Shown here: in pieces, positions 31,863-32,845 of the stretch
How positions within the stretch are numbered: position 1 is the stretch's first letter
Layout: each line of letters opens with the position of its first letter
From: Gammaproteobacteria bacterium
GTDB taxonomy: Bacteria; Pseudomonadota; Gammaproteobacteria; DSM-19610
NCBI GenBank assembly: GCA_011371465.1
Contig: DRQL01000326.1
Span: 1 to 32,845, forward strand
Length of the DNA: 32,845 bases
Direction: 5' to 3'
Notes under the pieces: generated by a model
The model's input: only the letters and a program-made list of their open reading frames with translations
Told to the model about the DNA's origin: nothing
The model's database searches: none
Translations under genes and position numbers: made by a program

Positions 31863-31938
31863 GGCCAGATAGCTCAGTTGGTAGAGCAGGGGACTGAAAA
31901 TCCCCGTGTCGGTGGTTCGATTCCACCTCTGGCCACCA
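31863..31938 (+). tRNA. tRNA-Phe (anticodon GAA)
   Basis: GGCCAGATAGCTCAGTTGGTAGAGCAGGGGACTGAAAATCCCCGTGTCGGTGGTTCGATTCCACCTCTGGCCACCA. Confidence 0.96.
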
Positions 31939-32021
31939 TATTTATCAACAAGATAAAAGTTTTCTGCTTTTAGTCCCCGTGTCACTCGGTACACTTTCGG
32001 TACACCTGTACTGGAAGTGCC

Positions 32022-32084
32022 GTGGCGGCCATCACCAGGACGCCTCCGAAGACCTGGAAGGCGATCATCCGCAAGCGCGATTGA
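32022..32084 (+). pseudogene. N-terminal remnant of a tyrosine-recombinase/phage-type integrase
   Basis: GTG-initiated VAAITRTPPKTWKAIIRKRD* closely resembles the start of integrases (M-AxIxKTPSGTWKAxIRKxG...), 83 bp after a tRNA 3' end. Confidence 0.6.
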
Positions 32085-32347
32085 AATTGAATGATATTTC
32101 CAGGTTCTGGAGGTGATTTTGTGGTCCAGGCTTTCGTTTTGGACTCAATAACGTCCACGCTTGACAGGAAGACTGAATCTCCCGATCCTTGAATTCTGCC
32201 TTCGTTCGATCTGTGATCCGACCGGCCTGTTGGTGGTCTCTCCGGGCCGATAGAACACTAATCGCAGTGCGGGGAATATTACAAAAATGCTTAAAGAGCG
32301 AAGTGCAGCAACTTAATTCAAAAAATAATTTTCAGGAGGAAACTATT

Positions 32348-32734
32348 ATGTCTGTTAATCCAGTAAAGCTGGCTGTTCTGTTCGTGGTCACCGCAAATCT
32401 TGTTTTCAGCAATGCATTTGCGACAACGCTGGTCGCACGGGACTGGCAGGCCGCCGGGGATAATGCGTTGACTTATGATAGCAGCACAAACCTCGAATGG
32501 CTGGATCTCACGCAAACACTCGGTGAGTCGGTAGTCTATGTCGATTCACAACTCGGTGCCGGCGGAATGTATGACGGATTCAGATACGCAACGCGCACAG
32601 AGGTTCAACAACTGTTTATCGACTTTGGACTGTTTTCAGCACCAAATGATGATGCAAGGGTTGCAAGGATCGATGAGTTGGCTGCGTTAATGGGGCAAAC
32701 CTATCCGGCCAACCCGTCTGCCAATCCGGCGTAA
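32348..32734 (+). CDS. Short secreted protein with LEWLDLT motif (PEP-CTERM-associated-like), no sorting tail; possibly truncated
   Basis: SD CAGGAGGAAACTATTATG; signal peptide AVLFVVTANLVFSNAFA; ARDWQAAGDNALTYDSSTNLEWLDLTQTLGESV...GFRYATRTEVQQLF. Confidence 0.6.
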   Translation: MSVNPVKLAVLFVVTANLVFSNAFATTLVARDWQAAGDNALTYDSSTNLEWLDLTQTLGESVVYVDSQLGAGGMYDGFRYATRTEVQQLFIDFGLFSAPNDDARVARIDELAALMGQTYPANPSANPA

Positions 32735-32813
32735 GCGCCAAATGAACCCCACCCTGTTGGCCTGAGTATTTTCTCTGCACGCTGTGCCATTTCAAACATA
32801 GCGGAGCAAGAAG

Positions 32814-32845
32814 ATGAGTGTAGCAGAAGAGGATGCTCTGACGGA
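32814..32845 (+). CDS. Possible start of a further CDS running off the window
   Basis: GCGGAGCAAGAAG-ATG AGT GTA GCA GAA GAG GAT GCT CTG ACG; SD-like GGAG upstream; only about 10 codons visible. Confidence 0.3.
   Translation, partial: MSVAEEDALT

Follow-up and report, generated by a model that had tools for sequence, protein, structure and literature searches.

An integrase stub behind tRNA-Phe as the probable left-end scar of a lost integrative island in a marine gammaproteobacterium

What does a frame of only 20 codons record when it lies just behind an intact tRNA gene? Near the right end of a contig from a marine gammaproteobacterium, a tRNA-Phe gene located by ARAGORN is followed by a leader of 83 bp and then by a frame that starts with GTG and ends with TGA (Table 1). 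The window analyzed here is the whole of that contig (G000:C326; 32,845 bases), taken from a draft assembly of 361 contigs that is 91.8% complete. The host is Thiohalobacter/Thiogranum-like; its closest relatives among the genomes searched are G016 and G012 (Thiohalobacter-type) and G005 (Thiogranum-type). Its order was represented by 20 genomes, and the comparison draws on draft assemblies.

Table 1 Features of the tRNA-Phe locus at the right end of the window
Feature	Position	Strand	Evidence
tRNA-Phe (GAA), intact; 3′ end is the attachment (core) site	31863..31938	+	ARAGORN; 3′ end repeated at both island ends in G005 and G014
Left-end leader (attL arm) of the presumed lost element, up to the GTG	31939..32021	+	with the stub, 92% identity over 141 nt to L066
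GGTACACTTTCGGTACAC, direct repeat of period 11 bp; putative arm-type sites for the integrase	31988..32005	+	leader conservation; pairs near right ends of relatives
Integrase stub: 19 integrase codons, then junction-made Asp and stop	32022..32084	+	profile E = 3.8e-8; tblastn 74% over 19 aa
Probable deletion junction; last homologous base 32079	32079..32080	.	blastn end point in several intact loci; alignment
PEP-CTERM-type secreted protein gene, truncated; stop supplied by IS66-type end	32348..32734	+	78% identity over 125 residues to intact G016 gene
Left end of IS66-type insertion sequence, runs off contig	32731..32845	+	repeat at contig ends in G010 and G011; copy in G018

The frame reads VAAITRTPPKTWKAIIRKRD* and had been predicted to be the start of a tRNA-targeting tyrosine integrase. 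Scored against a profile built from 58 distinct N-termini of related integrases, it ranks first among the 1077 stop-to-stop frames of the window, the next best having E = 0.04. At the DNA level, leader and stub together (31939–32079) are 77 to 92% identical to intact integrase loci. The 92% match extends across the full 141 nt to L066, which carries an intact 346-codon tyrosine integrase; identity is 89% to L065, where the integrase is likewise intact, and 83% to L037, the intact island of G005. These matches agree with the predicted identity of the frame. The frame is short and has both a start and a stop, as it would if it encoded a functional 20-residue peptide or resembled an integrase by chance, no island ever having been there; the profile score and the 92% DNA identity to an intact integrase locus refute chance resemblance and leave such a reading with negligible likelihood. 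No Pfam model covers the first integrase residues in the intact relatives. A tblastn search of plasmids with the 20 stub residues returned no match, which for so short a query means little, and the leader contains no match to a consensus sigma-70 promoter.

How much of the integrase remains? The similarity to integrases expected right of the tRNA was found when 31939–32845 was searched with whole integrases by tblastn: residues 1 to 19 match, there is no other credible match, and no integrase sequence past residue 19 was detected in that interval. The frame had been described as ending abruptly with no continuation, and homology to intact integrases indeed extends no further than 32079, where codon 20 begins. 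Because homology ends after 19 codons plus one base, the final Asp and the stop of the stub come from the joined sequence.

We compared the site with its counterparts in relatives, where the original prediction had suggested looking for full islands, and such islands are present in G005 and G014. G005 (L037) has the same leader behind tRNA-Phe, then a 347-aa tyrosine integrase (PF00589), and its island ends 12.5 kb away at a second tRNA-Phe 3′ end. The island of G014 (L038) is 15.3 kb long, is likewise bounded on both sides by tRNA-Phe 3′ ends, and encodes a type I restriction–modification set and a Fic protein. These two islands, in which tRNA-Phe is directly seen, and the L066 locus resemble the window in leader, integrase N-terminus, and start position; unlike the window, all three have an intact integrase, and G005 and G014 also keep cargo and right end. 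In the window, only 19 codons are left where an intact island would have a complete tyrosine integrase with its catalytic domain, and the tRNA 3′-end direct repeat (attR) of an intact far end is missing. The original prediction had proposed searching for such a repeat; a genome-wide search found none, the tRNA-Phe 3′ end being single copy in the source genome (91.8% complete). The same genome contains no second copy of the leader, and its sole full or long integrase of this family is a separate intact copy at tRNA-Met on contig C162. At L042:416–1456 this integrase adjoins tRNA-Met, with rpoD- and dnaG-like genes on its other side. Thus, what is found is an integrase start and leader homologous to those of intact islands at the same tRNA, with the remainder of the integrase missing from the assembly; given how fragmented the draft genome is, the missing parts could be located in DNA that was not assembled.

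Decay of such elements is also seen in relatives. Beyond attR of the G014 island lies a further island leader without an integrase. Contig C56 of G016 starts inside the 3′ half of tRNA-Phe and continues with an integrase cut down to its N-terminus and a catalytic scrap. After these integrase remains come helicases that match models of Druantia DruE, Dpd DpdE, and DISARM DrmD/DrmMI; the segment beside the decayed integrase (L045:2573–11999) encodes a 1733-aa MZB-domain helicase, a 938-aa DpdE/DrmD-like helicase, and a DrmMI-like protein. From these model matches, the cluster is possibly a mixed defense system, and related islands bear restriction–modification and other defense-like genes. In G219, the integrase at tRNA-Phe (L163:1400–1520) is frameshifted near codon 20 to 21, close to the cut point in the window. 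A breakage hot spot near integrase codon 20, based on the window, G016 C56, and the L163 frameshift, was considered and dropped as resting on too few cases.

Right of the junction, 32085–32345 has no match in its own genome or in 55 relatives, so the junction can be placed on its left side only, at 32079. The accessory genes that had been predicted to follow to the end of the window reduce to one, the PEP-CTERM-type gene, which is itself cut short: its stop at 32732–32734 is made by the IS66-type repeat that starts at 32731. The copy of this repeat in G018 encodes TnpB_IS66 (IS66 Orf2). In G016 the PEP-CTERM-type gene is intact (232 aa, with a PEP-CTERM motif just below the Pfam cut-off) and begins 328 bp past tRNA-Phe, with no leader or stub between; further right, G016 has genes common to the right flanks of G001, G003, G007, and G018. 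At high similarity the gene occurs only in the window and G016 among 30 genomes searched, and G005 has two distant copies elsewhere in its genome. Cargo genes of related islands were sought in 32060–32845 and none was found. Because G016 has the gene beside tRNA-Phe without the integrase leader, it is probably an older flank of this species pair rather than island cargo.

This arrangement in G016 bears on two further explanations. The contig ends at 32845 within the IS66-type repeat, and the DNA beyond is therefore unseen; other DNA could have inserted into the integrase at codon 20, with the rest of the island lying past the contig end. Such an insertion is very unlikely, as no further long match to this integrase was found in the genome at E ≤ 1e-60, no attR-like repeat was found, and the next gene of the window adjoins tRNA-Phe in G016 too. 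An assembly artifact, in which an island-bearing and an island-free strain were falsely joined, has to be weighed in draft metagenome-type assemblies, and contigs of G011 and G012 do break within the same leader or just inside the integrase. We nevertheless regard a false join as highly improbable here: G016 independently has tRNA-Phe beside the PEP-CTERM-type gene, and 32085–32345 occurs once in the assembly and thus offers no visible shared repeat on which a misjoin could have formed.

We therefore return to an island end from which the element was lost. On this account, the 3′ end of tRNA-Phe would formerly have held an integrative island with a tRNA-targeting tyrosine integrase, whose gene pointed away from the tRNA and lay behind a leader with two direct arm-type binding sites. 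A later, non–site-specific deletion starting after integrase codon 19 would have removed the remaining integrase codons together with the cargo and the right end, and an IS66-type element would then have inserted into the neighboring PEP-CTERM-type gene. We give this account, a left attachment end left behind by ragged deletion and followed by IS66-type insertion nearby, a probability of about 0.88; deletion as the cause and its order relative to the IS66 insertion are what we infer. A ragged deletion is favored over clean excision because precise excision leaves no leader or integrase codons. Of the scar of an "excised or decayed" element originally proposed, the decayed alternative thus stands and the excised one does not; the proposal of a left island edge with a deleted or truncated integrase is upheld by the homology of leader and stub and by the islands of G005 and G014. 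Having lost most of its integrase along with its cargo and right end, the element would be unable to move.

In the tRNA-Phe genes of the window and of G016 (L036:2416–2491), the T-arm reads GGTGG..CCACC; ten other relatives have GGCAG..CTGTC. An acceptor base pair of the window and G016 genes also differs from those ten, with compensation. Import of a new tRNA-Phe 3′ half by the element was considered but not adopted as an explanation, because the 5′-side base of the acceptor stem has changed too, which fits compensated substitutions equally well.

Arm-type integrase sites lie outside the core near both ends of an element and are spaced by one helical turn. The two direct GGTACAC motifs that had been noticed behind tRNA-Phe are there, at 31988–31994 and 31999–32005, with starts 11 bp apart. 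Of 78 unique leaders from this integrase family, 68 contain a GTACA pair of period 11, against a mean of 0.02 in mononucleotide shuffles, although related loci are not independent and the counts therefore run higher than the true number of separate cases. The leaders adjoin six kinds of tRNA (Met, Phe, Leu, Lys, Thr, and Asn). Similar pairs, mostly GGTACAC-type, lie about 130 to 143 bp inside the right end of the G005 and G014 islands, and in G009 one pair (L055) has this spacing from a fragment of the tRNA-Phe 3′ end; the window retains only the left pair. From this conservation and placement, the GGTACAC pair probably represents integrase arm-binding sites. Further, we think it moderately likely that one large integrase family has a common arm-site code, the 11-bp-period GGTACA pair, which it kept while moving among at least six tRNA kinds. 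In G001 (L039:1667–1900) and G007 (L052:7800–8040), a different leader behind tRNA-Phe contains GGCGCAC-type direct repeats about 11 bp apart, and in G007 a further GGCGCAC pair precedes a tRNA-Phe 3′ fragment by roughly 130 bp. These leaders perhaps belong to a second integrase family with the same architecture.

Known systems have a comparable layout. The KplE1 prophage has its attL arm-type sites in the interval separating the argW tRNA from intS, where they overlap the promoter of intS (PMC2951348). With KplE1 and related tRNA–integrase arrangements the scar shares an integrase gene adjoining a tRNA, with arm-type sites, putative in the scar, between the two in attL and over the promoter region. 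KplE1 differs in having another integrase and arm sequence and in being experimentally tested, and the integrase of the scar is destroyed. The Escherichia coli GI-pheV islands (PMC11537424) resemble the scar in lying at a tRNA-Phe 3′ end with a tRNA-proximal integrase, and reduced remnants of them are known; unlike the scar, they have a P4-type integrase, and intP4 is the gene retained there, whereas in the window the integrase itself is cut.

The scar is thus a clear but ordinary fossil of an already known kind of element, itself without any known function. It belongs to a tRNA-Phe hotspot where intact, decaying, and deleted states occur side by side, in a marine gammaproteobacterial genus that has received little study. 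The pattern GTACA, six bases, GTACA provides a simple DNA signature by which ends and scars of this element family can be sought. If the shared arm-site code is real, the arm code would be independent of the core target, and islands and scars such as this one could be found without an integrase gene.
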